This document shows, piece by piece, positions 6,097 through 42,643 of a stretch of 64,000 bases of DNA (positions are counted from its first letter, which is position 1; every line of letters begins with the position of its first letter). Made by a program: the position numbers and the translations under genes. A model generated the notes under the pieces. It saw only the letters and a program-made list of their open reading frames with translations, was not told the origin of the DNA and made no database searches. Source of the stretch: Pseudomonadota bacterium (GTDB lineage: Bacteria; Pseudomonadota; Alphaproteobacteria; SP197); the NCBI GenBank assembly GCA_039028155.1, contig JBCCIS010000002.1, positions 124,001 to 188,000 of the forward strand. The letters are read 5' to 3'.

Positions 6097-7041
6097 CTAG
6101 TTCAGCCGTTCCTTCAGTGCGCGGATGTGGTCGGGTGTCAGGCCGCAGCAGCCGCCGACGATCTGGACGCCTTGCTCGGTGATCCAGCCGGCGGCCGCCT
6201 CGGCATAAGGCGCGGGCTCGATAACGCCGCGGAACGTCCAGTCCGGCGGCGTGAACGTGCCACTGTGGGCATAGGCCAGCAGCGGTCCAGACCACACGGT
6301 CTTCAACGCATCCAGGCCTGGCGCCGTGTCCTCGACCTCTGAATGCATGATGCCGGCGGCGGCACCGCCGTTGGCCATGACGCGTTCGGCGAACGGGATG
6401 AATGGCTGACGTTTCCTATCCGCCTCGCGCAGTGGTGTACTAGAAGGGCCCTCCATGCTGCGCTCATTCGGAAAGGTGATCATGCGGCCCGCCTTTTCGT
6501 GGACGCTGAACCCGACCCAAACCGGCAGGCCGGTCGCGCGGGCAGCGTCGACACAAGCCTCCGCGTGGCCGGCCGTCATCATCATCTCGCACAGGATGAC
6601 GTCGCAGCCGCCCTCGGCCAGCGTCTCCGCAAGCCGCCGATAGTCATCCGCTGCTGCCTCGGCCGACGGCGTTTCGTCGACATGGGCTAGCGGCGGCATG
6701 GTCGACATGGAGCCGGCAAGCGCGACGTCGCGACCGGCGTCATCGCGCGCTTTCCGCGCCAGGCTGACGGCGGCGCTGTTGATTTCCTCGAACCGGTCGG
6801 CCAGGCCCGCCGGTTCCAGGGTGTAGCGGTTGGTGCCGAAGGTGTTGGTCGTAATGATATCGGCGCCGGCGGCGATGTAGTCGCGGTGCATGTCGCGCAC
6901 AGCATCGGGGTGCGACAGGTTGGCGCGGCCACACCAGGCGTCGTCATCCATCGGCACACCGCGGCGCTGCAACTCGGTGCCGATCGCGCCATCCAGCAGC
7001 AGAGTGCCGCCTTGCGCCAGCTTCTCGTCGATCCGGGTCAT
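6097..7041 (-). CDS. Homocysteine S-methyltransferase family protein (betaine- or methylmethionine-type)
   Basis: The 314-residue protein has the Pfam S-methyl_trans barrel: LLDGAIGTEL near residue 15, TTNTFGTNRYTLE at 64-76, and the zinc pair Cys298-Cys299 in GGCCG. In known enzymes (BHMT, MmuM) the third zinc ligand is a Cys in a G-x-N-C segment near residue 230; here the matching segment reads GIMHSE, so His233 may replace it. The reaction would move a methyl group from a methylated donor to homocysteine. It is divergent from two Rieske oxygenases, which suggests use of a betaine-type methyl donor, but this is inference. Confidence 0.8.
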   Translation of the reverse strand: MTRIDEKLAQGGTLLLDGAIGTELQRRGVPMDDDAWCGRANLSHPDAVRDMHRDYIAAGADIITTNTFGTNRYTLEPAGLADRFEEINSAAVSLARKARDDAGRDVALAGSMSTMPPLAHVDETPSAEAAADDYRRLAETLAEGGCDVILCEMMMTAGHAEACVDAARATGLPVWVGFSVHEKAGRMITFPNERSMEGPSSTPLREADRKRQPFIPFAERVMANGGAAAGIMHSEVEDTAPGLDALKTVWSGPLLAYAHSGTFTPPDWTFRGVIEPAPYAEAAAGWITEQGVQIVGGCCGLTPDHIRALKERLN

Positions 7042-7108
7042 CGCTCCCTCCCCCTAGGCTACTCGGGCCCACCGGGTCACGGCTCTTGATCGATGGACCC
7101 GATTCCAT

Positions 7109-7133
7109 CGTAGACTTCCCTGACAAGTCTACG
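7109..7133. promoter_or_regulatory. Candidate operator: perfect 9-bp inverted repeat
   Basis: CGTAGACTT (7109-7117) and AAGTCTACG (7125-7133) form a perfect inverted repeat with a 7-nt spacer. It lies in the 114-bp gap between the divergent methyltransferase and Rieske genes, ending 22 bases before the Rieske start. Its position suits a repressor site or a 5' leader hairpin. No regulator gene adjoins it. Confidence 0.5.
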
Positions 7134-7155
7134 CCGCCCGGTCAGGAGAACCAGG

Positions 7156-8364
7156 ATGACGCTTACCACGCCGCCCAGGCCAAAGCGGGCCGAACAGCTG
7201 CTTCCCAAGGACTGCTACATGTCGCCCGAGTGGTTCGAGCGTGAGCAGCAGGAGTTGTTCGGCCGCGCCTGGACCTTCGCCTGCGTCGCTCAGGACGTGC
7301 CGGACGCCGGCGATACCATGCCGGTGCAGATCGGCCGTTATCCGATGCTGGTCGTGCGCGGCAAGGACGGTGCGCTCAAGGCCTATCACAACACCTGCCG
7401 GCATCGCGGCACCAAGATGATCGAGGAAAAGGCGAATGCCCGGCACGGTATCGTCTGTCCCTACCACGCCTGGACCTACAACGTGGACGACGGCGGGTTG
7501 CGCGGTCTGCCGAAGAAGGACCTGTGTTTCCCTGATCTCGACATGGACCAGCTCGGTCTGCACAAGGGCGGCATCGGTCAGATTGGCGATCTCGTTTTCG
7601 TCAATCCCCAGGAGCGACCCGACGAGGACTTCCAGACGTGGTGTGCCGGCGTCGAGAAGACACACATGTGGCCGCACGATATCTCGATGCTTTCGGAGAA
7701 ACGGCCGGTCCGCTACGACATCATGGCGAACTGGAAGGCGTTCTGCGAGAACGCCATGGACGGCTATCACCTGTCGTACCTGCACGACAAAACGCTGATG
7801 GGCCCGGATGTCGAGAACCAGGACTGGGACGATGTCGGCCGCCACTGGGTCTTCATCAGCCATGGCGAATCGCCCAGCCGCGCCAACACGCACTTCACAC
7901 CGATCCCCGGCATCGACACGTCCGGCCGCCATCCGGTCGTCTGGCAGCTCTTCCCCAACAGCGGCATCCTGGCGTCATCGATATTCTTTTCCGCGTACAC
8001 CATCGTGCCGGTCGGGCCCGAGCAGTGTTACCTGGAACTCAGGACCTGGATGATGCCGAAGGAAACCCGGGATTCCAGCAAGGCGCCAACCCGACCATCG
8101 GGCACGTCGGGTCACGGCCACATCATGCCAGACGGTAAGCGCTACATTTCGCTGGAGACACTGGGGTGTCCGGCCATGGAGTCGCTGGACTTCCAGATCG
8201 AGGACATGTGGGTCTGCGAGCAGCAGCAAAAAGCGTTGCAGTCACCGCTGTTCAAGGTCGGTGCGCTCGCCGACAGCGGCGAGACCTCGCTCACCTTCTT
8301 CCAGGCGAACGTGTTGGACTTCGTACCGTTGGAAGGCCCGGGCGTGAAGCTGGCGGCGGAGTAA
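7156..8364 (+). CDS. Rieske non-heme iron oxygenase, alpha subunit type
   Basis: The 402-residue protein has a [2Fe-2S] Rieske motif (Cys81, His83, Cys101, His104: CRH...CPYH) and a catalytic domain with the mononuclear iron ligands His205 and His210 in ENAMDGYHLSYLH. This matches ring-hydroxylating and quaternary-amine demethylating oxygenases. No ferredoxin or reductase partner gene is nearby, so electrons must come from elsewhere. The ATG follows an AGGA site. A second Rieske gene starts 83 bp downstream. The substrate is inferred to be a methylated amine or betaine from the neighbours, with aromatic acids as the alternative. Confidence 0.85.
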   Translation: MTLTTPPRPKRAEQLLPKDCYMSPEWFEREQQELFGRAWTFACVAQDVPDAGDTMPVQIGRYPMLVVRGKDGALKAYHNTCRHRGTKMIEEKANARHGIVCPYHAWTYNVDDGGLRGLPKKDLCFPDLDMDQLGLHKGGIGQIGDLVFVNPQERPDEDFQTWCAGVEKTHMWPHDISMLSEKRPVRYDIMANWKAFCENAMDGYHLSYLHDKTLMGPDVENQDWDDVGRHWVFISHGESPSRANTHFTPIPGIDTSGRHPVVWQLFPNSGILASSIFFSAYTIVPVGPEQCYLELRTWMMPKETRDSSKAPTRPSGTSGHGHIMPDGKRYISLETLGCPAMESLDFQIEDMWVCEQQQKALQSPLFKVGALADSGETSLTFFQANVLDFVPLEGPGVKLAAE

Positions 8365-8398
8365 CCGTGCGTTCGGCGTCTTGACGGCGCTCGGCGGG

Positions 8399-8420
8399 TT
8401 ATTGTACGCTCATTCAATAA
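8399..8420. promoter_or_regulatory. Inverted repeat before second Rieske gene
   Basis: TTATTG (8399-8404) and CAATAA (8415-8420) pair across a 10-nt spacer, in an AT-rich patch 27 bases before the next start codon. It could be an operator or mark a separate promoter for the second oxygenase. Short arms make this tentative. Confidence 0.3.
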
Positions 8421-8447
8421 ACGCCTAGCTGGTGAGGAGACTGGATC

Positions 8448-9572
8448 ATGGCCGCGCTTGCAGCTGAAAAGATCACCGGTTTCGATATCGATCCCGAGCG
8501 GTCGCAAACGCTCGACCGCACGTACTACTTCGATCCCGAGGTCTACGATCGCGAGAAGAAGTCGATCTTCTATAAGACTTGGCAGTATGTCGGCCACGTT
8601 TCGATGGTCGACAAGCCCGGCGCCTATCTGGTGCGCGACATCTTCGATCAAAGCGTGTTGGTGATCCGCGACACCAAGGGCCAGTTGCGCGCGTTCTTCA
8701 ACGTCTGCCAGCACCGCGCCCATCGCCTTTTGGAAGGCGAAGGCCGGGTCGGCGGCGTTATCACCTGTCCCTATCACAGCTGGGCTTATGGCACCGACGG
8801 CTCGTTGCGCCGCGCGCGCGGCAGCGAGAAGGTCGAGTCCTTCGACGCGGACGCACTCTGCCTGGAGCCGGTCAGGCTCGACAGCATTCTGGGCTTCCTG
8901 TTCGTCAACCTGGACGGCTCGGCGCCACCGCTTGCCGACGTCGCCGGACCGCTTGCCGATGAGGTCGCGGCGTTCTCGCCGCACGCCGCCGAACTGAAGT
9001 GCGCGCACCGTGCCGACTATGCACTGAACGCCAACTGGAAGAACTCGGTCGAGAACTACAGTGAGTGCTTCCACTGCCCGAACCAGCACCCGACCCTGAT
9101 GCAAAACGCGATCGACTACGGTTCATACCGCATCACGACGTTCGAGCATCACCACAGCCATTACTCGGTCGGCGTCGGCGAGGCGCAGGGTTACTCGACC
9201 GCGACCGACGGCGCCGAAAAGCAGGATGAGTTCGGCAGCTTCATGCTGTTCCCGAACTGGTGCATCGAAGCCTATCCCGGCGGCAACCTGACCGTCTTCC
9301 ACCACGAGCCGACCGGTCCGGAAACCACCATGCAGCACTGCGAGTACTACTTCGCGGGCGACACGCCGACCAAGGAGGAGATGGAAGTCATCAACTTCGT
9401 CCACGAGGTCAGGTTGGAAGACATCCCGCTATGCGAAAGCGTGCAAAAAGGTCTGCATAGCCTGGGTTACCGCCAGGGCCGCTTCATCGTCGACGGCGAG
9501 AGAAGCGAGATCAGCGAGCACGCGGTGCACGACTTCCAGCACAAGGTGCGCCGGGCGCTCGGCGAAGCCTGA
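8448..9572 (+). CDS. Rieske oxygenase of the GbcA/stachydrine-demethylase (Stc2) type
   Basis: The 374-residue protein has Rieske ligands Cys87, His89, Cys107 and His110 (CQH...CPYH), and iron ligands His209 and His214 in the stretch VENYSECFHCPNQHP at residues 201-215. This E-N-Y-x-E-C-x-H-C-P pattern is characteristic of the quaternary-ammonium demethylases (glycine betaine GbcA, proline betaine Stc2, choline monooxygenase). The likely reaction is oxidative N-demethylation with release of formaldehyde. GGTGAGGAG lies upstream of the ATG. A TMADH-type flavoprotein at 14671 could act on the product. Confidence 0.85.
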   Translation: MAALAAEKITGFDIDPERSQTLDRTYYFDPEVYDREKKSIFYKTWQYVGHVSMVDKPGAYLVRDIFDQSVLVIRDTKGQLRAFFNVCQHRAHRLLEGEGRVGGVITCPYHSWAYGTDGSLRRARGSEKVESFDADALCLEPVRLDSILGFLFVNLDGSAPPLADVAGPLADEVAAFSPHAAELKCAHRADYALNANWKNSVENYSECFHCPNQHPTLMQNAIDYGSYRITTFEHHHSHYSVGVGEAQGYSTATDGAEKQDEFGSFMLFPNWCIEAYPGGNLTVFHHEPTGPETTMQHCEYYFAGDTPTKEEMEVINFVHEVRLEDIPLCESVQKGLHSLGYRQGRFIVDGERSEISEHAVHDFQHKVRRALGEA

Positions 9573-14670: not shown

Positions 14671-16662
14671 TTAAAGCGTCAGTGCCAGTTTGCGCGCTTC
14701 GTAGAACGCCATGGATGCCGTGCGCGGTGCCACGGTGTCGCCGATGCTGTGTACCTCGGTGCCGTCGTCGGCGAACGCCGCGGTCAGGCTGTTCACCGGC
14801 CGGTTGGTGGTCGCCAGCACCAGGCTGTCGAAGTCGCGGGTTTCCTGGTCGCCCGTATAGAGATTGATGAGGGTCGCCGTGTTGCCCTGCCACGAAACCA
14901 GCCCGGTCGCGGTCAGCACCTCGACGCCCATCTTCATGAACCGCTCGCGCGCCGTTTCGCCAGTCTGGGAGAGGTCCAGCGCGCCGGCCGCCTTTTCCGC
15001 CGCCGTGACCACGGTGACCATGTGGCGTTGTTCGGCAAGGTGCAGCGCGGTGCCGCTGGCCGGCCACCAGCCATTGAGATCATCGAGCAACAGGACATTG
15101 GTCCCCGGTACTACATCGCCCTCCAGGACATCATGAATTGTGCATACATTGTCCTGGTCGGCGCCTTCCAGGGCCTCGATATGCGGAAAGGCGCGCTGGA
15201 ATCCGCGCCGGTCAGGTTCTGATCCTGTTGCCAAAACGACCGTGTCGGGCTCAAGCCCGCGAATGGCCTCGACGTCCAGATCGGCCCGCAGCATGACGCG
15301 CACCTGAAGCTTCTCGAGCTGACCTTGGTACCAAGTGAGCAGGCCGCCGATCTCACCGCGTTCCGGCTGGCCGGCGGCGAGCCGGAACTGGCCGCCCAAT
15401 TCGTCGCGGCGTTCGGCCAGCGTGACCCGGTGGCCCCGTTCGGCGGCAACGCGCGCCGCCTCCAGACCGGCCGGTCCACCGCCGACAACGACCACATGGC
15501 GCGGCTTCTCGGATGACGGCGGTTTGTCGCCGCCCCATTCGCTCTCGCGCCCGACCGATGGGTTGACGAGGCAGGAGATGTGGTAGTCGCGCATACGCCG
15601 GCCGATGCAAAGCTGGTTGCAGGAGATGCACGGGCGCACGTCCTCGGCGCGGCCTTCGCGCGCTTTGTTGGCCAGATGCGGGTCGGCGATCTGGCCGCGC
15701 ACGATCGAGACCAGGTCCGCCTTGCCGTCGGCAATCACCGCCTCGGCATTGGCCGGTGTCTTGACCCGGGCCTCTGCGGTGACCAGCGCATGCTTGGTGA
15801 CCTCTTTGAACGCCGCGGCATCAGGTGGGCCCAGCAGCATGCCGTAGTGAAAGCTCGGCACGATCTTGGTGAACTGGTTCAGATAGCTGCCGGTGCCGCA
15901 GGAGAAGTAATCGATCAGCCCGCGTTCATCGAGCCAGGCAATGATCTCCTGCTTGTCTTCGATGGTCAGGCCGCCCGGATAGGGCTCGGCGCCGGAGATC
16001 GTCATGCCGATGATGAAGTTGTCGCCGCAGGTCTTGCGGATGCCGTCTGCGATGCGCGCGGCGAAGCGCACGCGGTTCTCCAGGTTGCCGCCCCACTGGT
16101 CGTCACGCTTGTTGGTCAGGGGCGACCAGAACTGATCGATCAGGCAGTTGTAACCGGCGAAGAGGTCGACGCCGTCGAAGCCGCCGTTCTGGTCGCGCTG
16201 GGCTTGCTCGATGAAGGCCGCGATCAGTTCCTCGATCTCCGCCTCGGTCATCGCATGGCTGCCCCAGGGGTCGTGGAAGCTCGGCCCGCCCGACGGCGAC
16301 CAATAGGGTGTCCACGAGTTGTCCTGATCGCCGTGCTGCCCGACATGATAGATCTGGTGGACCATCACGGTGCCGTGGCTGTGGCATTCGTCGGTGATGC
16401 GGCGGAAGTGGGGGATGACGCTGTCGTCGTGGCGCAGGTTGCCGCGGGTCAGGATCGCGGTCTCGTGGGGCGGCGTCGGCTCGACCACGATCATCGCCGC
16501 GCCGCCGCGCGCGCGTTCCCGGTAATAGCCGAAGTGGCGGTCGGACGGCAGGCCGTCCTCGGCCATGTTTGCGGTGTGCGCGCCGAACACGATCCGGCAC
16601 TTCAGCTCCTTGTCGCGCAGCTTGACCGGCGAAAACAGATGCGGAAAGGCCTGCTCGGCCAT
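14671..16662 (-). CDS. TMADH/N-methylproline-demethylase-type flavoprotein (OYE plus 4Fe-4S)
   Basis: This 663-residue protein has an N-terminal Old-Yellow-Enzyme FMN barrel (about 1-340), a [4Fe-4S] motif with Cys345, Cys348, Cys352 and Cys364, and a C-terminal FAD/NAD(P)-like domain starting with VVVGGGPAGLEAA near 391. This layout occurs in trimethylamine, dimethylamine and histamine dehydrogenases, dienoyl-CoA reductase and N-methylproline demethylase. With a GbcA/Stc2-type Rieske enzyme 5 kb away, oxidative N-demethylation of a secondary or tertiary amine is favoured. The start at 16662 has GGGAGG six bases upstream; a nine-residue extension is possible. Confidence 0.8.
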   Translation of the reverse strand: MAEQAFPHLFSPVKLRDKELKCRIVFGAHTANMAEDGLPSDRHFGYYRERARGGAAMIVVEPTPPHETAILTRGNLRHDDSVIPHFRRITDECHSHGTVMVHQIYHVGQHGDQDNSWTPYWSPSGGPSFHDPWGSHAMTEAEIEELIAAFIEQAQRDQNGGFDGVDLFAGYNCLIDQFWSPLTNKRDDQWGGNLENRVRFAARIADGIRKTCGDNFIIGMTISGAEPYPGGLTIEDKQEIIAWLDERGLIDYFSCGTGSYLNQFTKIVPSFHYGMLLGPPDAAAFKEVTKHALVTAEARVKTPANAEAVIADGKADLVSIVRGQIADPHLANKAREGRAEDVRPCISCNQLCIGRRMRDYHISCLVNPSVGRESEWGGDKPPSSEKPRHVVVVGGGPAGLEAARVAAERGHRVTLAERRDELGGQFRLAAGQPERGEIGGLLTWYQGQLEKLQVRVMLRADLDVEAIRGLEPDTVVLATGSEPDRRGFQRAFPHIEALEGADQDNVCTIHDVLEGDVVPGTNVLLLDDLNGWWPASGTALHLAEQRHMVTVVTAAEKAAGALDLSQTGETARERFMKMGVEVLTATGLVSWQGNTATLINLYTGDQETRDFDSLVLATTNRPVNSLTAAFADDGTEVHSIGDTVAPRTASMAFYEARKLALTL

Positions 16663-16812
16663 GGCGTCCTCCCTCGGACTTCCGAACACGGGAGCTTAGG
16701 TGCGCGCCGGCGTCATGAAAAGGCCGCCATGCGCCGCGTGCCGGTTGTCTGACGACCGCTGCCGTGCTGGTGTGTCGGTGAAACCAAAGACAGTCAACAT
16801 GGGGAGACGGTG

Positions 16813-33960: not shown

Positions 33961-34183
33961 GGCAAATCATCTTTCCGGCGCGCCGCGGCGGCGCTGATCG
34001 AGACCATCTAGCGTCCGATCAGGCGGAATGTGCGGGTTATAGCAAGAATCCACGATTTCTCCATGCAATCTCCAGGTTGCCGCCAAGCGGCCTGGGACAA
34101 GGCTTCCCATCTACCCGCCATTCGACACGAACCGGCGACCACGACCGGTGTCGGGTCCAACCTCTAAACAGGAGTAGATGGAA
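33961..34183. promoter_or_regulatory. Divergent intergenic region, regulator and peroxiredoxin
   Basis: This 223-bp gap holds the promoters of both genes. An imperfect dyad with arms CGACAC (34123-34128) and GTGTCG (34148-34153) lies about 30 bases before the peroxiredoxin start. No further element was seen. Confidence 0.35.
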
Positions 34184-34843
34184 ATGACTCTTAGAATTGG
34201 AAGTTTCGCACCGGACTTTGTTGCCGAGACGACCGAAGGCGAGATCCGCTTTCATGACTGGATCGGCGATTCCTGGGCGGTGCTGTTTTCGCACCCCAAG
34301 GACTTCACGCCGGTCTGCTCGACCGAGCTTGGCCATGTCGCCAGCCACAAGGACGAGTTCGACAAACGCGACTGCAAGATCATCGGTCTCAGCGTCGACA
34401 CGGTCGCCGACCACGAGGGCTGGGCCAACGACATCAAGGATCTAACGGGACATGCGCCGAACTTTCCGATCATCGGAGATCACGGTCTCGATATTGCGAA
34501 GCTCTACGACATGCTGCCCGAAGACGCCGGGAAGTCGTCGAAGGGCCGAACAGCCGCCGACAACCAGACGGTTCGTAACGTTTACGTGATCGGTCCCGAC
34601 AAACGCATCAAACTGATGATCGCCTACCCGATGAGCACAGGCCGCAACTTCGATGAGGTCCTGCGCGTCATCGATTCTCTCCAGCTGACCGCCCGCCATC
34701 AGGTGGCGACGCCGGTGAACTGGCAGCCGGGCGAAGACGTCATCATCGTCCCGGCAGTCTCCGACGAGGAAGCCAAGAAAAAGTTCCCCGAAGGCTGGGA
34801 CGCCAAGAAACCCTACATGCGCGTCGTCGCGCAGCCGGCTTGA
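34184..34843 (+). CDS. 1-Cys peroxiredoxin (Prx6 type)
   Basis: The 219-residue protein has the peroxidatic Cys45 in the motif DFTPVCSTELG and the long C-terminal extension (PVNWQPGEDVIIVP) of the Prx6 group. It reduces peroxides, needing an outside thiol such as glutathione. ATG 34184 is preferred because GGAG stands nine bases upstream; ATG 34178 would leave only three. It is followed by an exported rhodanese after 30 bp and may form an operon with it. Confidence 0.92.
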   Translation: MTLRIGSFAPDFVAETTEGEIRFHDWIGDSWAVLFSHPKDFTPVCSTELGHVASHKDEFDKRDCKIIGLSVDTVADHEGWANDIKDLTGHAPNFPIIGDHGLDIAKLYDMLPEDAGKSSKGRTAADNQTVRNVYVIGPDKRIKLMIAYPMSTGRNFDEVLRVIDSLQLTARHQVATPVNWQPGEDVIIVPAVSDEEAKKKFPEGWDAKKPYMRVVAQPA

Positions 34844-34873
34844 ACCGGCACTTGGGAGAAGGAGGGAAATCCC

Positions 34874-35776
34874 ATGACACCCTATAGACGCGCCTTCGGT
34901 CGTTTGTTCCTTGCCGTCCTTTTGGTGGCGGGCTGGGGCATACGCGCGCCGCTGGCCGACGGCTACGCCAACGGCCACCTGCTGGTCGAGACCGGCGATC
35001 TGGCCATCCTGCTCAACGAGCCGGGTCTTGGCGTTACAGACAATCTACGCATCATCGATGTAAGGCCGGCCGAGGACTATGCCGACGGCCATATCCCAGG
35101 CGCCATCCATCTGAGCGCCGACGATGTCATCGATCCGTCGAGCCATGTCGACGGCGCGCTTTATGACGCGGCGACGCTGGCGGTCATGCTGGGCGCGCGT
35201 GGCATCGACAAAGACAGCCGCGTCATCCTCTATGACGACAACGGCGGTTTTCATGCCTCACGGCTGTTTTGGATGCTGGAATACCTCGGTCACCGCGACG
35301 TCGCCGTCCTCAACGGTGGCTGGCCCAAGTGGTTCGGCGAGGGTTATGCGGTCAGCACCGAGACACCCGACGTCCAAAGCGCAACCTTTGCCGTCACGTT
35401 GACACCGCGCCGCATTGCGACCGCCGACTGGCTCTTGTCCCATCGCGATGATGACGATGTCGTGGTGATCGATGTCAGGCCGGTTTCCGCTTACGCCAAG
35501 GGTCACATTCCCTGGGCGCAGAACATTCCGTGGAAACAGAACCTGACCGACGACGGTGTCATGCGGTCCGCCGACGAGCTGATCGCGCATTTCGCCGCGC
35601 ATGGCGTTACCGAGGACACGGTGGTCGCGGTCCATTGTCAGAATGGCAAGGCGGCCGGTCACACATACTTTACCCTGCGTTTGCTCGGATTCCCCCAGGT
35701 GCGCAGCTACGACCGCTCCTGGGCCGAATGGGGCACGGCGGGCGATCTGCCCGTGGTCGTCGAGGCCGAGGGGTGA
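34874..35776 (+). CDS. Exported tandem-rhodanese sulfurtransferase
   Basis: The 300-residue protein has a signal peptide (hydrophobic LFLAVLLVAGWGI, likely cleaved near residue 29) and two rhodanese domains. The first (about 35-165) has an inactive loop; the second (about 180-290) carries the active Cys255 in HCQNGKAAGH. The overall order is that of thiosulfate and 3-mercaptopyruvate sulfurtransferases, but the loop is not the classical CGSGVTA or CRxGxT. Periplasmic location suggests thiosulfate or sulfane sulfur handling. Confidence 0.85.
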   Translation: MTPYRRAFGRLFLAVLLVAGWGIRAPLADGYANGHLLVETGDLAILLNEPGLGVTDNLRIIDVRPAEDYADGHIPGAIHLSADDVIDPSSHVDGALYDAATLAVMLGARGIDKDSRVILYDDNGGFHASRLFWMLEYLGHRDVAVLNGGWPKWFGEGYAVSTETPDVQSATFAVTLTPRRIATADWLLSHRDDDDVVVIDVRPVSAYAKGHIPWAQNIPWKQNLTDDGVMRSADELIAHFAAHGVTEDTVVAVHCQNGKAAGHTYFTLRLLGFPQVRSYDRSWAEWGTAGDLPVVVEAEG

Positions 35777-35795
35777 CGAACGCCACCGGAAGGGA

Positions 35796-35829
35796 TGGGG
35801 CCCGGTCCTGTCATGGCGGCCGGGCCCCA
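35796..35829. terminator. GC-rich hairpin after rhodanese gene
   Basis: TGGGGCCCGG (35796-35805) and CCGGGCCCCA (35820-35829) form a perfect 10-bp stem with a 14-nt loop, 20 bases after the rhodanese stop and 30 bases before the methyltransferase start. There is no T run. Confidence 0.6.
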
Positions 35830-35858
35830 CCAACCTCGCTCGATAAGAGGACAACACG

Positions 35859-36683
35859 ATGCAGAACCCCTATGAGGCGGCTCGCGCAAGGTCGGCCGCC
35901 ACCTATAACGCCGCCGCCGATCACTTCGATGATACGCCGCTGGCGTTCTGGGACCGTTACGGGCGCCGCACCGTCGATCGGATCAGTTTGAAGCCGGGCG
36001 CTCGCGTGCTCGACGTCGGATGCGGTTCCGGCGCATCAGCCATTCCGGCGGCCGAGAGGGTCGGACCAAGCGGCCGGGTGATCGGCGTCGATGTCGCCGA
36101 TCGGTTGCTGGACAAGGCGCGTACCAAGGCGCGCTGGCGCGGCCTCGGTCAGGCGACGTTTTGTTACGGCGACATGACCTCGCTCGCCTTCGACGACGAG
36201 AGCTTCGATGCGGTCGTCAGTGCCTTCTCGATCTTCTTCGTGCCCGATATCGCGCGCCAGGCAAGCGCGCTATGGCGTCTTGTGCGCCCGGGCGGCACGC
36301 TCGCGATAACGACCTGGGCCAGAGGTTTCGTCGAACCGGGCGCGTCGATCTGGTGGCAGAGCATCAGCGAAGTTCGGCCCGACCTCGCCCGCAGCTTCAA
36401 TCCCTGGGACTCCATCGTCGAGCCGGAGACGCTGCTCGCCATGATGAACAAGGCGGACATCCCCGGTGGCCTGGTCGTCGCCGAAGACGGCCACCAACCG
36501 CTGACCTGCCCAGAGGACTGGTGGACCTTGATACTGGGTGCCGGGTTCCGCTGGACCGTCGAGCAGATGACGGCTGCCGAGGTCGAGCGCGTCAAAGAGG
36601 TCAACCTCAGCAAGATCCGCGAACGCGCCATCGACAAGGTCACCACCGATGTCCTTTACGCGACAGCGCTCAAACCGCTCTAG
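35859..36683 (+). CDS. Class I SAM-dependent methyltransferase
   Basis: The 274-residue protein has motif I VLDVGCGSGAS near residue 50, an acidic residue at the end of strand 2 (VIGVDVADR) and the MENG/UbiE-like order YGDMTSLAFDDESFDAVVS. A C-terminal helical part (PEDWWTLILGAGFRWT) is typical of the Methyltransf_11 group. The substrate is unknown. AAGAGG precedes the ATG. Confidence 0.85.
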   Translation: MQNPYEAARARSAATYNAAADHFDDTPLAFWDRYGRRTVDRISLKPGARVLDVGCGSGASAIPAAERVGPSGRVIGVDVADRLLDKARTKARWRGLGQATFCYGDMTSLAFDDESFDAVVSAFSIFFVPDIARQASALWRLVRPGGTLAITTWARGFVEPGASIWWQSISEVRPDLARSFNPWDSIVEPETLLAMMNKADIPGGLVVAEDGHQPLTCPEDWWTLILGAGFRWTVEQMTAAEVERVKEVNLSKIRERAIDKVTTDVLYATALKPL

Positions 36684-36822: not shown

Positions 36823-38682
36823 ATGGCGCAGCAGAAACAACCGACGATGACGGCCGCCAACACGCGGCGCATTCTCAATGTTTATGGCGATCTCCCTGAC
36901 ATTAGGGATCGCATGTATGAGCCGGCCCTGGTGAAACTGGATCCCACGGTCGACAACCGGGAGCCCAGGCTGGTTCTTGATCAAGGTCGCGAAGGCGCCT
37001 GTACGGGTTTCGGGCTTGCCGCGGTGATCAACCTGCTGAACAAGCGCCGCGGCACGCCCAGCTTCAAGGCAAGCGCGCGGATGCTCTACGAAATGGCCAA
37101 GAAGCACGACGCCTGGCCCGGCGAGGACTATGCGGGGTCAAGCTGCCGCGGCGCCATACGCGGCTGGATGAACATGGGCGTGTGCAGCGAACGAAGCTGG
37201 CCCTATGCAGCGGGTACCGCCGACAACCGCTTAACCGTCCAGCGCGCGCGCGAGGCGCGCCACAACACGCTCGGCGCCTATTACCGCCTCAGGCCGGAGA
37301 TCACCGACTACCACGCCGCGATCAATGAAGTCGGTGCCGTCTATGTATCCGCCAAGGTGCACAGCGGCTGGAACCGGCCACGATCGGAGGACGGCAAGAA
37401 ACTGGCGCTGATCAAGCCAAGCCGCAACGAGACCGGCGGCCACGCCTTCGCCATCGTCGGCTACATGGCCGACGGTTTCATCGTACAGAACTCGTGGGGG
37501 CCCGATTGGGGCGATAAGGGGTTTGCGCTCTGGCTCTATGAGGATTGGCTTGCCAGCATCATGGACGGCTGGGTCTTCCGTCTGGCTCTGCCGACGGCGC
37601 AGATCTTCAACCTGCAGCCAAGCCGCGAGCAGCTGCCCGGCGCCGCCGAGGAGGCCAAGAGCCCGGCGCCGGAACGCCACGAGATCGCCGGCCACTTCGT
37701 CCATTTTGACGACGGCCATTACAAGCCCAAAGGCGACTATTGGAGCAACAGTGACGATGTCCGCCAAACCGCGGAACGTCTGGCGTCGGCGGAAAACGAC
37801 AAGTACGGCCACCTGATGATCTATGCCCATGGCGGCCTCAACAGCCCGGAAGCCTCGGCGCGACGGGTGCGCGCGCTGAAGGACGGATTCAAGCGCAACG
37901 GCATCTATCCCTATCACATCATGTACGACACGGGCCTGGTCGAGGAGGTGAAGGACGTGGTGAAGCGGGCCCTGGGTCTTGCCGAGAAACGGGTGGGCGG
38001 CTTCTCCGACTTCTGGGACGGCATCATCGAAGACATGGCGCGAAAGCCGGTCACGCCGATCTGGGAAGAGATGAAGCGCGACGCCCGTTTGCCGTTCGAG
38101 GTCGGCGGCGACGGCAGCGATGCGATCACCGCGTTCGCAACGGCACTCGCGGACACGGGCAAGTCGATCCACCTGGTCGGCCACAGCACCGGCGGTATCC
38201 TACTCGGCCATCTGCTGGACGCCCTAGACCGCCTGGGGCGTCCCGACATCGTCGCCTCGTGCAGCCTGATGGCGCCGGCCTGCACGATCGACTTCTATAA
38301 GGAACACTTCCGGCCGCGGCTCGGCGGCGGCGACGCCGGTCGCGTACGCCTACCGGTCATGAAGGTCTATAACCTGAGCGAGAAGCTGGAAGAGGACGAC
38401 ACGGTCGCCTCGGCCTATCGCAAGTCGTTGCTCTTCCTCGTCTCCCGCGCGCTCGAAAGGTCACGCGAGAAACCGGTCCTGGGCATGCGGGTCTATTCAA
38501 AGAGACTGCGCGGCAAGCGGGTGCCGACGTTCATCTATTCCGATGGCGACGGCAAAAAAAGCGCCAGTACGACCCATGGCGGCTTCGACAACGATGCCAA
38601 CACCATGAACGACATCTTGAAGACGATCGTGGGCGGCAAACCGAAGCAACCGTTCGATGCCGAAGAGTTGACGGGGTTTTAG
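36823..38682 (+). CDS. Papain-like C1 peptidase fused to an alpha/beta hydrolase
   Basis: The 619-residue protein has two parts. Residues about 45-260 match a C1 cysteine peptidase: Gln54 and catalytic Cys60 in DQGREGACTGF, His207 in GGHAFAIVGY and Asn223 in VQNSWGPDWG. Residues about 325-600 look like an alpha/beta hydrolase: HGG oxyanion segment at 336-338, nucleophile Ser455 in VGHSTGG and a possible catalytic His in THGGFDND. No signal peptide or membrane helix is seen, and no prodomain precedes the peptidase. The fusion is unusual and its target is unknown. The gene stands alone, with a hairpin after it. Confidence 0.8.
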   Translation: MAQQKQPTMTAANTRRILNVYGDLPDIRDRMYEPALVKLDPTVDNREPRLVLDQGREGACTGFGLAAVINLLNKRRGTPSFKASARMLYEMAKKHDAWPGEDYAGSSCRGAIRGWMNMGVCSERSWPYAAGTADNRLTVQRAREARHNTLGAYYRLRPEITDYHAAINEVGAVYVSAKVHSGWNRPRSEDGKKLALIKPSRNETGGHAFAIVGYMADGFIVQNSWGPDWGDKGFALWLYEDWLASIMDGWVFRLALPTAQIFNLQPSREQLPGAAEEAKSPAPERHEIAGHFVHFDDGHYKPKGDYWSNSDDVRQTAERLASAENDKYGHLMIYAHGGLNSPEASARRVRALKDGFKRNGIYPYHIMYDTGLVEEVKDVVKRALGLAEKRVGGFSDFWDGIIEDMARKPVTPIWEEMKRDARLPFEVGGDGSDAITAFATALADTGKSIHLVGHSTGGILLGHLLDALDRLGRPDIVASCSLMAPACTIDFYKEHFRPRLGGGDAGRVRLPVMKVYNLSEKLEEDDTVASAYRKSLLFLVSRALERSREKPVLGMRVYSKRLRGKRVPTFIYSDGDGKKSASTTHGGFDNDANTMNDILKTIVGGKPKQPFDAEELTGF

Positions 38683-38748: not shown

Positions 38749-38803
38749 TTGACTCGAAAGCTCTTGACTCTCTCTATATCACTAGATATCTAGATACATA
38801 GAG
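38749..38803 (+). promoter_or_regulatory. Promoter with 32-bp palindromic operator upstream of the arsI-like cluster
   Basis: Positions 38772-38803 form a near-perfect 32-bp palindrome centred on TAGATATCTA, with outer arms CTCTAT and ATAGAG; 26 of 32 bases pair. Two TTGACT boxes (38749-38754, 38764-38769) lie just upstream and the AT-rich dyad covers the likely -10 region. The first gene starts 47 bases further on. Binding by the ArsR protein encoded in the same cluster is inferred. Confidence 0.65.
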
Positions 38804-38850
38804 ATCCGGTATTCGGTAACGGCAGACCTGTCATCGCGGGAGAAGCGACC

Positions 38851-39255
38851 ATGAAACTGCACATTTCCATGCAGGTTGAAGAGTTCGACAAGGCCGTCGA
38901 CTTCTATTCGGGACTGTTCGGCCAAGAACCGACCATATCCAAGGACAGCTACGCGAAGTGGGACGTCGACGACCCGAACGTCAACTTCGTCGTCGAAGCC
39001 TTGGGCAACGACGTCCGCGTCGACCATTTGGGCATTCAGGCTGAGTCCGAAGACGAGCTGAAAACCATTGCGAACCGCATGCGCGAGTCGGGGCGCCCCT
39101 ATCTGGATCTGGAAAACACCACCTGCTGCTACGCCAGCATGGAGAAGGCGTGGGTCAAGGGCCCGGCCGGGGAGAAGTGGGAAGCGTTCTTTACGCACGG
39201 CCACGATGAGCAGGACTACGGCGAAGACCGCGAACATCTGCTGGACGTGATGTAG
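38851..39255 (+). CDS. ArsI-like C-As lyase/VOC dioxygenase family protein
   Basis: The 134-residue vicinal-oxygen-chelate protein matches the layout of ArsI, the Fe(II)-dependent C-As lyase that removes aryl or methyl groups from trivalent organoarsenicals: metal ligands His4, His59 and Glu111, and the vicinal pair Cys92-Cys93 in TTCCYA, which in ArsI binds the arsenical. A related family is the cadmium-induced CadI. No arsenic pump or methyltransferase is nearby, so the substrate is uncertain. It is the first gene after the 32-bp palindrome. Confidence 0.8.
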   Translation: MKLHISMQVEEFDKAVDFYSGLFGQEPTISKDSYAKWDVDDPNVNFVVEALGNDVRVDHLGIQAESEDELKTIANRMRESGRPYLDLENTTCCYASMEKAWVKGPAGEKWEAFFTHGHDEQDYGEDREHLLDVM

Positions 39256-39283
39256 GCAAACCCACGACAACCGAGAGCCGGGC

Positions 39284-40072
39284 ATGGCGAACGTTCAAGA
39301 TAATGGAAGACTGGCGGGCAAGAACGCCGTCATCACCGGCGGCGCCGCCGGCATGGGCCGCGCTGCATCCCTGCTGTTCGCGAAGGAGGGCGCTGCAGTG
39401 ACCATCCTTGACGTGCAGGCCGATGACGGTCGCGCGACAGTCGCGGACATCGAGCAGAGCGGCGGCCAGGCCACGTTCGTTGAAGCCGATGTGTCCAATG
39501 CCGACGACGTCACACACGGTTTCGACGCCGCCGTAGCGACGTTTGGTGAGATAGGCGTTCTTTTCAGTCACGCCGGGACGATCATCGTCCAACCGCTCCA
39601 CGAGACCGATGAGGCCGACTATGACCGCCTGATGGCGATAAACGCCAAGTCGTCGTTTCTGAGCTGCCGCGAAGCCATTCGGCACTTCTTACGCACCGGT
39701 ACGCACGGCTCGATCGTTATCACGTCGTCGATCGGTGGCGAGAAGGGGTTCGCCCTGGAGAGCGTCTACTGCGTGTCGAAAGGCGCCGTTCTGCAGCTGG
39801 CGCGATCGATCTCCAGCGAGTACCGCACACAGGGCATTCGTTGCAACGCCGTGTGTCCGGGCTTTGTCGAAACGGCGCACGGTCTGCGCGAGATCAAAGA
39901 ACTGGATGCGCTAGGCGAGACTTGGGAAGACGCGTCGCTTGCTGATTCACAGATTCGAATCTGCGACCCCGATGAAGTGGCAGCTGCTGCCCTGTTCCTG
40001 GCGTCGGACGAGGCCAGTTTTGTCAACGGCACAGCGCTTTATGTCGACAACGGCTGGTTTGCCAAAGGTTAG
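39284..40072 (+). CDS. Short-chain dehydrogenase/reductase in the ArsR cluster
   Basis: The 262-residue protein has the cofactor motif ITGGAAGMGRA (about 17-27), Asp43 (ILDVQADDG) after strand 2 suggesting NAD(H), a catalytic Ser in ITSSIGGEKG and Tyr-x-x-x-Lys in VYCVSKGA. The substrate is unknown. It follows the ArsI-like gene by 28 bp and precedes the Nif11-like gene by 3 bp, so it is part of the operon. SDRs are not usual members of ars operons. Confidence 0.85.
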   Translation: MANVQDNGRLAGKNAVITGGAAGMGRAASLLFAKEGAAVTILDVQADDGRATVADIEQSGGQATFVEADVSNADDVTHGFDAAVATFGEIGVLFSHAGTIIVQPLHETDEADYDRLMAINAKSSFLSCREAIRHFLRTGTHGSIVITSSIGGEKGFALESVYCVSKGAVLQLARSISSEYRTQGIRCNAVCPGFVETAHGLREIKELDALGETWEDASLADSQIRICDPDEVAAAALFLASDEASFVNGTALYVDNGWFAKG

Positions 40073-40075
40073 GCC

Positions 40076-40330
40076 ATGACGGTGGAAAGCTTGAAAGCGT
40101 TTGTCGCGCAGGCCCGCGACGATAATGAGATCAAGGAAGCGATCCGCACCGCAACCTCGCCGGACGACATCGTGGCGCTGGGTGCAAAGGCCGGTCATCA
40201 ATTCTCGACCGACGAGTTGATGTCGACCGAGATCGAATTGGCCAAAGACGATGTCTCGTCGATCACAGTTCGGCGCGTAGGCTTCCGCGTGCATCCGTTC
40301 GGCAGCAAACATTGGTTCGGCTGGAAGTAG
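40076..40330 (+). CDS. Nif11-domain small protein
   Basis: The 84-residue protein matches the Nif11/Nif11-like leader domain in residues 4-50: SLKAFVAQARDDNEIKEAI, then DDIVALGAKAGHQFSTDEL. Such domains form leader peptides of some RiPP precursors, but also occur alone next to nitrogen-fixation or unknown genes. There is no Gly-Gly cleavage site here; the tail ends HPFGSKHWFGWK with a conserved-looking aromatic end. No RiPP-modifying enzyme is adjacent. It starts three bases after the SDR stop. Confidence 0.7.
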   Translation: MTVESLKAFVAQARDDNEIKEAIRTATSPDDIVALGAKAGHQFSTDELMSTEIELAKDDVSSITVRRVGFRVHPFGSKHWFGWK

Positions 40331-40400
40331 GCGTTTGCGCGCTGCACTGCCTGTCCGGGCCGCGATCTTGAACACCATTGATAAGCAGAGGTCTCCACAA

Positions 40401-40721
40401 ATGTCATTTCTGTCCCAGCACTTCCCTGCGTTCACCAGTGCGCTCAGCGAACTCGACAAGGTCTATGACGAACACCGGACTATCGACGACAAGACGGATG
40501 AGCTGATCCGCTTCGCTCTGTCGGTCAAGGCGCGATCGCAGCCTTGTGTGCTCAAGCATTTCAAAGGCGCGATTGATGCCGGCGCGAACGAGTATGACCT
40601 CGCCTATATCCTGGCGCTGGTGATGCGAGAAGCGGCGGGCGCGGACGACTGCTGGACGCATGACGTCATTGGCGATTGGAGCGAGGTTATCTCCGGCAAA
40701 CGCGGCTGTGGCTGCGGTTAG
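40401..40721 (+). CDS. Carboxymuconolactone-decarboxylase/AhpD-like protein
   Basis: The 106-residue all-helical protein matches the CMD family: ELIRFALSVKARSQPCVLKHFKGAIDAGA. Classic AhpD-like members have CxxCxxxH; here only the second Cys remains (PCVLKH). A CxC pair ends the protein (GCGCG), which could bind metal or metalloid. The start at ATG 40401 follows AGAGG; the longer frame to 40335 is unlikely. It stands in the ArsR cluster, and thiol chemistry on an arsenical or peroxide is possible. Confidence 0.75.
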   Translation: MSFLSQHFPAFTSALSELDKVYDEHRTIDDKTDELIRFALSVKARSQPCVLKHFKGAIDAGANEYDLAYILALVMREAAGADDCWTHDVIGDWSEVISGKRGCGCG

Positions 40722-40732
40722 GGACTGAGGCA

Positions 40733-41149
40733 ATGGGTGCTCTGGCTGACCAATGGGCGAAGCTGCGCCACCTGTCGACCCGCGACGACGAGCTCTCCCT
40801 TGAAGAGGCCGCGCAGGCGTTTGCGGCCGCAGGCTCGGAGCCGCGGCTGGAGGTCCTAAGAGACCTTATCCGCGCCGGCGAGGACGGTTTGTCAATCGGC
40901 GTCATCCAAAACCGACTGGGCATGCCAGGCTCGACGCTGTCGCACCACCTGCGCTTCTTAACGTCCGCAGGATTGGTCGAGCAGGAGAAGTCGGGCCGCA
41001 CGGTTGTCAACCGCGCCAACTTCGCCCGTATCGAATCACTCGCCGCGTTTCTGCTTCACGAGTGTTGCTTCGAGGATCCCGCCTACGCGCCCGACGATAC
41101 GGAAGGTGCGCGCTACGGCTGCGCACCGAAAAAATCGAAGAACTCATAG
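40733..41149 (+). CDS. arsR: ArsR-family transcriptional repressor
   Basis: The 138-residue protein has a winged helix at about 28-100 with the recognition helix GMPGSTLSHHLRFLTSAGLV, typical of ArsR/SmtB repressors. The classic ELCVCDL metalloid site in the DNA-binding helix is absent. Instead, Cys111-Cys112 (HECCFED) and Cys130 in the C-terminal part could form the inducer site, as in other ArsR types that place their cysteines outside this helix. GAGG precedes the ATG. It lies in the middle of the cluster and probably represses from the 32-bp palindrome. Confidence 0.85.
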   Translation: MGALADQWAKLRHLSTRDDELSLEEAAQAFAAAGSEPRLEVLRDLIRAGEDGLSIGVIQNRLGMPGSTLSHHLRFLTSAGLVEQEKSGRTVVNRANFARIESLAAFLLHECCFEDPAYAPDDTEGARYGCAPKKSKNS

Positions 41150-41193
41150 ATGGCCTTGCCCGTCGTCATCATCAGCAAAGAGAGGACCGTGAC

Positions 41194-41631
41194 ATGAAAC
41201 GAATCCACATGGGTGTTGTCGTTGAAGACTTCGATAAGTCGCTCAAGTTTTACACCGATTTCTTTGATGCCGAACCGACGCTGCTGAAGGACGGCTACGC
41301 GCGCTGGATGCTTGATGATCCGCGCGTCAACTTTAACATCAATGTGCAGGGTCCTGCCCCGGGGATCGATCATGTCGGTATCCAGGTTGAGAGCGACACC
41401 GATGTTGCTGAAGCCGGCGCGCGTCTGCGCGATGCAGGCTATCTGGCCAAGGACGATAACGAATCCAATTGCGGTTACGCCGAGCAGACCAAGGTTTGGG
41501 TCTCCGATCCGCAAGGCGTCGTGTGGGAGACCTTTCACTCGAAGAAGCCGCTTGAGGATTACGGCGAGAACGATCTGCCGGACGAACTCATCAGCGAACT
41601 GCGCACCGGAGCCGGCGCGACGGCGAGCTAG
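41194..41631 (+). CDS. ArsI/CadI-like VOC protein, second copy
   Basis: The 145-residue protein is a paralogue of the one at 38851: metal ligands at His5, His60 and Glu112 are kept. The vicinal Cys pair is changed to NCGYA, leaving only Cys93, so As(III) binding by two neighbouring thiols is unlikely. A C-terminal tail of about 25 residues has no Cys. It may act on a different substrate or bind metal. AGAGGA precedes the ATG; it closes the operon. Confidence 0.8.
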   Translation: MKRIHMGVVVEDFDKSLKFYTDFFDAEPTLLKDGYARWMLDDPRVNFNINVQGPAPGIDHVGIQVESDTDVAEAGARLRDAGYLAKDDNESNCGYAEQTKVWVSDPQGVVWETFHSKKPLEDYGENDLPDELISELRTGAGATAS

Positions 41632-41728: not shown

Positions 41729-42643
41729 GTGAAAGCGCAACGCAGCGGGCCAGCCTCGCTCGCAACCATCGGGTTGCTGCTGTTGATGGGGGCGGCCTGG
41801 GGGCTCGAGTTCTCGATGCTGAAGCTTGCCGCCGAGGCTGGTTTTCCCGGTACCGGCGTGTTGCTGATCACCCTTGCCCTTGTCGCCCTCGTCTTTTCGG
41901 CGATCGTCACGATCCAGCGAACATGGTTTCGGCCGACACGCGAGGTCGTCGTATTTCTGTTCGTGATCGCGATGCTGGGCTACGTGCTGCCGCTCCTGGC
42001 GGCACTGTGGGCTGCGCCCTATGTGCCCGCGGGCATCATGACGTTAATCGCGTCGTTCACACCGGTTGTGTCGGTGGCGTGTGCGCTGGCGTTGCGCAGC
42101 GAGCACGTCTCCTGGCGGCGCGCGACCGCCGTCCTGCTGGGCATGGCCGCCGCCCTGTTGGTTCTGGTGCCGGAGAGCCAGCTGCCGCAATGGGGCAACG
42201 TCATCTGGTTGCTGGTCGTCTTTGTTGTGCCGCTCACCTATGGCATCGAGTCCGTCTACGTCTCGGTCGCATGGCCGAAGAACCTGACACCCATGCAGGT
42301 CGCGGCCGGTCAGTCGGTCGTCGCGCTGCTCACGATGCTGCCGATTCACCTCGTCCTCGGCGAACCCATACCGTGGGACCCCGAATGGCCGATCGGCCAA
42401 CTCGCCATCCTGGTTGTCGCCGCCTGCCTGCTCGTCGAGGTGTTGCTCTACTTCCTCATTATCAGCCGCACCGGCGGCGTGCTTGTGAACTTCAGCCTCT
42501 ATATCTCGCTCTTCGCCGGCATTGCCTGGGGCTGGGTCATCTTCGGCGAGCGGCACGACGCCCATGTCTGGATCGCCGTCGTGGCGCTGGCCGTCGGGCT
42601 CACGTTCACGCTGCCGCCACGCAAGAAGAAGCCTGCGCCGTGA
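41729..42643 (+). CDS. EamA/DMT-family transporter
   Basis: The 304-residue protein has ten predicted membrane helices in two EamA repeats, the second ending GWVIFGERHDAHVWIAVVAL. Members export small metabolites such as amino acids or import nucleotide sugars; the substrate is unknown. It starts at GTG 41729, 97 bp after the ArsR cluster, so it could be read through from it, but nothing proves this. It ends in a basic cytoplasmic tail. It is convergent with comM. Confidence 0.88.
   Translation: MKAQRSGPASLATIGLLLLMGAAWGLEFSMLKLAAEAGFPGTGVLLITLALVALVFSAIVTIQRTWFRPTREVVVFLFVIAMLGYVLPLLAALWAAPYVPAGIMTLIASFTPVVSVACALALRSEHVSWRRATAVLLGMAAALLVLVPESQLPQWGNVIWLLVVFVVPLTYGIESVYVSVAWPKNLTPMQVAAGQSVVALLTMLPIHLVLGEPIPWDPEWPIGQLAILVVAACLLVEVLLYFLIISRTGGVLVNFSLYISLFAGIAWGWVIFGERHDAHVWIAVVALAVGLTFTLPPRKKKPAP

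Follow-up and report, generated by a model that had tools for sequence, protein, structure and literature searches.

ArsI is a C-As lyase, and the closest described systems to the locus considered here are the arsR-arsI-arsC-acr3 operons, such as those of Azospirillum thermophilum (L029) and Novosphingobium ES2-1 (L132), in which the gene for the ArsR repressor lies immediately before the ArsI-type gene and both products carry a vicinal cysteine (CC) pair. Among annotated plasmid ArsI loci, arsC, ACR3 or arsA/D is found nearby in nine out of ten (13 of 120 matching records were read, three of which were without usable annotation). The locus considered here lies in a window of 64,000 nucleotides, meaning the whole stretch of DNA analysed, from contig JBCCIS010000002.1 of a Pseudomonadota bacterium (assembly GCA_039028155.1; Alphaproteobacteria, SP197), and consists of six plus-strand genes at 38851-41631 which encode, in order, VOC1, SDR, Nif11, CMD, ArsR and VOC2. 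With the operons above it has in common its protein families, the placing of ArsR directly before an ArsI-type gene and the CC pair in ArsR and ArsI, but it differs from them in having no ArsC or ACR3, in having two ArsI-type proteins, and in the addition of the SDR, Nif11 and CMD proteins. The reading to which we give a probability of roughly 0.6 is that the cluster is an ArsR-controlled operon for the detoxification of trivalent (organo)arsenicals and, judged from the sequences, the arsenicals handled would most likely be organoarsenicals.

An earlier note on this DNA had described six genes on one strand with gaps of 3-70 bp, and both the coordinates and the gaps (28, 3, 70, 11 and 44 bp, in order) are confirmed. 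The families it named agree with the profile scans, with VOC2 just under the cut-off and the CMD match weak, and the CMD protein does end in CxC as was said (the last residues are GCGCG). The same scans agree that no arsenite pump, ArsC or ArsM is present among the six genes, and in this the cluster is not a canonical ars operon. The suggestion of ArsI-type proteins under a metalloid-type ArsR, with a probable organoarsenical role, is upheld by nearest relatives that are linked to ACR3 and by the retained CC pairs. What that note overlooked is the loss of a cysteine in VOC2, the putative palindromic operator at 38773-38802 and an EamA gene 97 bp downstream of VOC2.

VOC1 and its arsenic context

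VOC1 passes the curated cut-off of NF041414, the ArsI/CadI equivalog, and matches the crystallised ArsI of Thermomonospora curvata (TcArsI, 5d4f) with an E value of 3e-23, the CC included. Alignments place in it an iron triad of H4, H59 and E111 together with Y34, K99 and the vicinal pair C92-C93, these being the only two cysteines of the protein. In its iron triad, tyrosine, lysine and vicinal cysteines it is like the ArsI proteins of Bacillus MD1, Nostoc and T. curvata (5c4p/5d4f), and the residues correspond to the metal- and substrate-binding residues of ArsI that are given in passages of PMC12607644. Within the tree VOC1 belongs to a clade of six rows (support 100/99), the others being its copy in the sister genome (G001, the one further member of its genus among 60 relatives drawn) and the proteins of loci L063, L035, L064 and L065. 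The last of these is a gammaproteobacterial locus with the gene order ArsR, VOC1-like, ACR3, where ACR3 scores 426 vs 283 bits, the VOC1-like protein beside it scores 109.1 bits against NF041414, below the cut-off of 116, and the ArsR, at 65% identity, is the nearest to the window ArsR found outside the genus. At L035 and L064 ArsR and the VOC1-like gene are divergently oriented, and no ArsR relative is present at the fetched locus of L063.

What, then, is the metal or metalloid that such a cluster would handle? One answer is a cadmium or general soft-metal stress operon, in which the VOC proteins would be CadI-like and the CGCG tail of CMD and the cysteines of ArsR would bind Cd(II) or a similar ion. 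The joint coverage of ArsI and CadI by NF041414, the presence of that tail and of cysteines in the sensor, and a weak similarity of ArsR to the Rv2640c family (40.4 vs 155 bits) all lean towards this answer, but the nearest ArsR, with its VOC1-like gene, adjoins the arsenite pump gene ACR3, arsenic genes accompany the plasmid ArsI loci in the proportion given above, and the C-As lyase site is complete in VOC1, leaving cadmium a fairly unlikely explanation.

Besides the cluster, two more ArsI-type loci are present in the window's genome. One of them, C22, combines an ArsI-type gene with ArsR, an MIP channel and a low-molecular-weight phosphatase that is ArsC-like but scores below the ArsC cut-offs. 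The other (L056, 6785-7586) is a third pair of ArsI-type and ArsR-type genes, with no arsenic genes recognised nearby.

VOC2 and its single substrate-site cysteine

VOC2 is like ArsI in keeping the iron triad (H5, H60 and E112, invariant in the alignment), the tyrosine, glutamine and lysine (Y35, Q98 and K100) and the first cysteine of the substrate pair, and is unlike it in having a glycine at the second substrate cysteine and a score slightly, by 2.4 bits, below the family cut-off. In both species C93-G94 replaces the vicinal pair, and the retained first cysteine is the sole cysteine of the protein. A comparison of 36 ArsI-like sequences, in which VOC1 and VOC2 of the window are joined by 34 others taken from the loci fetched (L046, a fragment at a contig end, being set aside), finds CC at the substrate site in 34 and CG in two, which are VOC2 and its orthologue. 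VOC2 lies on a deep branch separate from VOC1, with both supported (L045 and L049 are long rows in this tree and are placed unsurely), and an origin of VOC1 and VOC2 by recent tandem duplication of ArsI was rejected on these separate supported branches. Its dN/dS of 0.028 against the sister genome means that VOC2 is not decaying.

Trivalent arsenicals differ in the number of thiolates by which they are bound, with three for arsenite, As(III), two for the monomethyl form, MAs(III), and one for the dimethyl form, DMAs(III). Since DMAs(III) binds one thiolate and VOC2 has one cysteine, we propose that VOC2 may prefer a dialkyl arsenite. Passages of PMC12607644 describe Tyr, Gln and Lys as essential in T. 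curvata ArsI, and VOC2 has all three. One form that such a role could take is a two-step aerobic demethylation, in which VOC2 would convert DMAs(III) to MAs(III) and VOC1 would convert this to As(III), with the thiols of CMD reducing the pentavalent dimethyl form, DMA(V), and with ArsR tuned to methylated arsenicals. Improbable as we hold this scheme to be, if true it would provide the first dedicated bacterial lyase for the DMAs demethylation step, a process whose mechanism was called unclear in 2023 in passages of PMC10579292. Dimethylated arsenic is among the main methylation products in paddy soil and can bring about rice straighthead disease. According to passages of PMC6426599, Nostoc ArsI had not been tried on DMA. 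A natural single-cysteine ArsI-type protein beside a normal ArsI offers a probe of whether thiolate number decides which organoarsenical is cleaved.

Sensor, putative operator and proposed mechanism

The cysteines of ArsR are C111, C112 and C130, the third being at +18 from the CC pair. Its best match in the PDB is 6j05, which we take to be AfArsR, and the CC aligns to an NCC there. According to passages of PMC13236881, AfArsR binds As(III) through Cys95, 96 and 102, and SpArsR, which is without the third cysteine, responds to MAs(III) and not to As(III). The window ArsR is like both in its C-terminal CC pair but has its third cysteine at +18, compared with +6 in AfArsR and none in SpArsR, and carries an N-terminal extension. 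For a comparison of cysteine spacing 28 ArsI-linked loci were entered, of which eight without a usable row were dropped, and L140 was dropped from the count, having two matching ArsRs with the CC located elsewhere. Apart from the sister copy, the third cysteine lies at +4 to +9 in 14 ArsRs and at +10 in that of L065, and is absent from the ArsRs of L035 and L064, both of the VOC1 clade, and of L042. From these residues we lean to organoarsenicals as the candidate inducer. A similarity of ArsR to Csa3/CARF regulators reported by PADLOC is that of the helix-turn-helix alone and was disregarded.

Upstream of VOC1 lies a near-perfect palindrome of 30 bp, TCTATATnnCTAGATATCTAGnnAnATAGA, which is the putative ArsR operator. 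It is the single such site in the window when both strands are read, it is found in 0 of 100 shuffles, and its exact 12-bp core occurs at 6 of 142 loci, every one a copy of this cluster. The palindrome is retained in the sister genome, and the bases around it drift. By eye, TATCTA at 38787-38792 is a possible -10 box with a 17-nt spacer from the putative -35 box TTGACT, and a repressor bound at 38773-38802 would occupy the stretch between the two. A consensus promoter scan for sigma-70 reported no promoters in its output, the TTGACT box included, and a terminator scan returned five terminator-like sites against 3.9 expected. At L065 a similar box, ACTAGATATATAGT, is seen by eye after TTGACA and ahead of the nearest ArsR.

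The scheme that follows, in which all the catalytic steps, the inducer and the product are ones that we infer, has as its directly observed basis the gene content, the residues, the operator sequence, the selection and the arsenic context of the nearest relatives. ArsR would be bound to the palindrome, between the two putative promoter boxes, until a trivalent arsenical is caught by its C111-C112 pair, whereupon it would leave the palindrome and the genes from VOC1 through VOC2, and perhaps EamA, would be co-expressed. VOC2, with an iron site and one substrate cysteine, would act on a differently substituted arsenical such as a dialkyl arsenite, or alternatively might merely hold or pass on the substrate. 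CMD, as a small thiol protein, may act on the arsenical as a reductant, carrier or buffer, SDR may process the alcohol, aldehyde or quinol that is freed, and the Nif11 protein, with its conserved tail, may be an adaptor that has no enzymatic function.

A number of points weigh against an arsenical detoxification operon. Nothing in these data ties the SDR, Nif11 or CMD protein to arsenic independently of the cluster. A search of the window's genome finds no ACR3 (0 of 1), and as the cluster itself has neither a pump nor ArsC nor ArsM, there is no evident route by which As(III) would leave the cell; the MIP channel or EamA would be a guess for this exit. Only two genomes are known with the cluster, and as both share the entire neighbourhood of 20 kb, the common gene order says little about whether the genes work together. 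Because the curated family NF041414 merges ArsI with CadI, cadmium keeps a place among the candidates. ArsR does possess a third cysteine, at +18, so that its selectivity could go either way, and the L042 ArsR, also without a third cysteine, lies outside the VOC1 clade. Finally, in passages of PMC12607644 the change of Cys96 and Cys97 of ArsI to serine abolishes binding and activity, and VOC2 may be non-catalytic, because it falls below the family cut-off and is without the cysteine that, with its neighbour, ArsI needs for activity; a non-catalytic VOC2 is as easy to believe as one with a dialkyl-arsenite role.

Accessory proteins, neighbours and distribution

Table 1. Genes and control elements of the cluster and its downstream neighbour, with positions in the window.
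Feature	Position	Strand	Evidence
TTGACT, putative -35 box	38764..38769	+	read by eye; TTGACTC kept in sister genome
Putative ArsR operator, 30-bp near-perfect palindrome TCTATATnnCTAGATATCTAGnnAnATAGA	38773..38802	.	upstream of VOC1
VOC1, ArsI-type C-As lyase (predicted)	38851..39255	+	NF041414 121.8 vs 116 bits
SDR-family oxidoreductase	39284..40072	+	PF13561 197.9 bits, 2.6e-58
Nif11-domain small protein, 84 aa	40076..40330	+	PF07862 47.8 bits; TIGR03798 47.2 vs 32.3
CMD/AhpD-like thiol protein, 106 aa	40401..40721	+	PF02627 24.2 vs 23 bits (weak)
ArsR/SmtB repressor	40733..41149	+	NF033788 57.5 vs 55 bits (metalloregulator subfamily cut-off)
VOC2, divergent ArsI-type protein	41194..41631	+	NF041414 113.6 vs 116 bits, under cut-off
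EamA (DMT) transporter, possible seventh gene, membership uncertain	41729..42643	+	PF00892 63.9 bits

The six genes occur in the sister genome in the same order inside a collinear contig of 20 kb, with protein identities to the window of 96% for VOC1, 92% for SDR, 83% for Nif11, 99% for CMD, 95% for ArsR and 97% for VOC2. The corresponding dN/dS values for the first five are 0.053, 0.078, 0.167, 0.007 and 0.040. Together with that of VOC2 they span 0.007-0.17 at a dS of 0.45-0.58, and all six genes are therefore under purifying selection, which is strongest on CMD. As the genes are collinear in the sister genome with low dN/dS, the cluster is not a product of chance; it is real, functional and lineage-specific.

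Beyond the genus the picture was drawn from 385 genomes of the class and 369 of the phylum, draws that overlap and that each include the window's own genome. Orthologues of CMD are found in 0 of the 384 other class genomes and 0 of the 368 other phylum genomes, and the same holds for Nif11. The CMD query returns its own genome and 15 distant matches in the class, the best at about 30% identity, and its own genome and 36 distant matches in the phylum, the best ten at 23-35%; in the seven matches that were read the CMDs displayed are CxxC proteins with no arsenic genes recognised alongside, and three plasmid CMD matches are located in other contexts. The Nif11 query returns its own genome and one match at E 0.009 in the class, and its own genome alone in the phylum. 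When 84,980 species genomes were scanned with the VOC1 alignment, by way of two short exact peptide patterns that may pass over distant relatives, four loci came up; one is that of the sister genome, and no relatives of SDR, Nif11 or CMD are present at the other three. Nor does a relative of SDR, Nif11 or CMD stand beside any other fetched ArsI-like locus, most of which reach about 1.5-6 kb per side, and the viral contigs searched hold no match. On the sampled genomes these CMD, Nif11 and VOC1 searches led to the rejection of a widely conserved six-gene set. The co-occurrence of the six families in related genomes that the earlier note had looked for does not extend beyond the genus, an outcome which that note had counted as one half of a refutation, and of its candidate new system there survives a lineage-specific variant that is better described as a variant of the ars operon.

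With regard to the Nif11 protein, an AlphaFold2 model has a helical domain (pLDDT ~76-88 up to residue 50) followed by a disordered tail, which contains conserved aromatic and histidine residues, ends in FRVHPFGSKHWFGWK and has its last 16 residues identical in both species. Codons with a changed amino acid number 2 of 28 in the tail and 12 of 56 in the domain, and a comparison of synonymous and nonsynonymous changes gives a p of 0.23. Passages of PMC2887384 give the N11P class a Gly-Gly-type cleavage site and a variable core rich in Cys, Ser and Gly. The protein is like the N11P (TIGR03798) leader peptides in having a Nif11 domain over the cut-off, and unlike N11P in having neither a Gly-Gly site nor a cysteine, in its conserved tail, and in having no adjoining maturation genes. 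A Nif11 peptide that acts as precursor or carrier and is tailored by VOC, SDR and CMD, with ArsR as sensor of a natural-product or metal-binding-peptide pathway, would suit the scores over cut-off for TIGR03798 and PF07862, the conserved disordered tail behind a leader-like helical domain and the top hit of a fold search in which nothing is significant (9zn4, E 1.8, the Nif11 leader of a ribosomally synthesised and post-translationally modified peptide). It is nonetheless very improbable, given the missing Gly-Gly and cysteine, a tail no more variable than the domain, unlike N11P as portrayed in the passages cited, and the finding that the nine proteins scanned, six from the cluster and three from neighbouring genes, include no maturation enzyme, ABC transporter or protease of this kind. 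A literature search, within the collection covered, found Nif11 linked neither to ArsR with arsenic nor to carboxymuconolactone decarboxylase, and one on ArsI, CMD and ArsR found co-mention in separate contexts only.

The window's genome has one Nif11 protein, the present one, and the Nif11 family model has matches in 18 of the 385 class genomes, its own counted; those loci of the other genomes that were fetched contain no relatives of the remaining five cluster genes. At five of them (L066, L067, L068, L091 and L094) Nif11 proteins, several in tandem, have GGKGHH-type stretches, some His runs and ends rich in V, A and T, and possibly form a separate family of Nif11 precursors.

CMD has its cysteines in the arrangement S46-x-x-C49, C84 and C103-G-C105. 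It is like the AhpD/CMD family (7y4r, GSU3128 family) in its core and in the histidine after the second cysteine, and unlike it in the serine that stands for the first active cysteine, the extra C84 and CGCG tail, and the length of 106 aa. In the match to 7y4r (E 2e-6) SQPC is set against RCDGC, and the AhpD-type CxxC is thus absent. With a mean pLDDT of 47.9 the AlphaFold2 model is too poor to be usable, and no fold search was based on it. Against the curated NCBIfam model of an ArsM-AhpD fusion CMD scores 18.3 vs 510 bits; that such a fusion exists is a hint, no more, that the CMD fold can serve arsenic chemistry. The SDR is generic, with TGxxxGMG and S-YxxxK present by eye and a score short of the cut-off of every specific family among the 25 NCBIfam models listed.

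Could these enzymes instead belong to an electrophile or peroxide stress operon, with ArsR sensing a thiol-reactive organic compound and with VOC, SDR and AhpD-like proteins clearing aldehydes, quinones and hydroperoxides? A mix of SDR, CMD and VOC is common in clusters for such stress, VOC2 is without the arsenical-binding cysteine pair, and the same strand carries genes for a 1-Cys peroxiredoxin and a rhodanese-type protein ~3-5 kb upstream, but with SxxC in place of the AhpD-type CxxC in CMD, and with VOC1 having its CC pair and forming a clade with a protein encoded at a locus with ACR3, this operon is unlikely.

The upstream genes just mentioned form part of a row at 34178-36683 in which a 1-Cys peroxiredoxin, a rhodanese-type sulfurtransferase (by eye) and an S-adenosylmethionine-dependent methyltransferase follow one another. 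The methyltransferase (35859-36683) was rejected as an ArsM: this is its nearest NCBIfam model, but the score of 85.3 bits is far below the cut-off of 263. Between this row and the cluster a gene at 36823-38682, whose 3' end is 168 bp upstream of VOC1, encodes a 619-aa protein that, unusually, joins a papain-type peptidase domain at its N terminus to an alpha/beta-hydrolase-like region at its C terminus. On the other side EamA, on the same strand as VOC2, follows it in the sister genome too. A check of the comM flank in 11 genomes (in four of which comM gave no match within the limit set, and in G009 a split one) finds six genomes of the sister genus that have comM without cluster-side neighbours, meaning neither EamA nor the cluster, so that EamA stays an uncertain member of the operon.

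The G+C content is 59.8% in the cluster vs 64.4% in the window. Elsewhere in the window, 6097-9572 and 14671-16689 contain two genes of the Rieske ring-hydroxylase type, a homocysteine-methyltransferase-like gene and an Oxidored_FMN/Pyr_redox protein, presumably resembling a neighbourhood for betaine or methylamine N-demethylation. As to habitat, the names of the metagenome-assembled genomes of the sister genome and of L063 start with PL23b and IP29b, which are samples of a coral-skeleton study (Porites lutea / Isopora palifera), and in coral skeleton algal methylated arsenicals and arsenosugars are plausible substrates.

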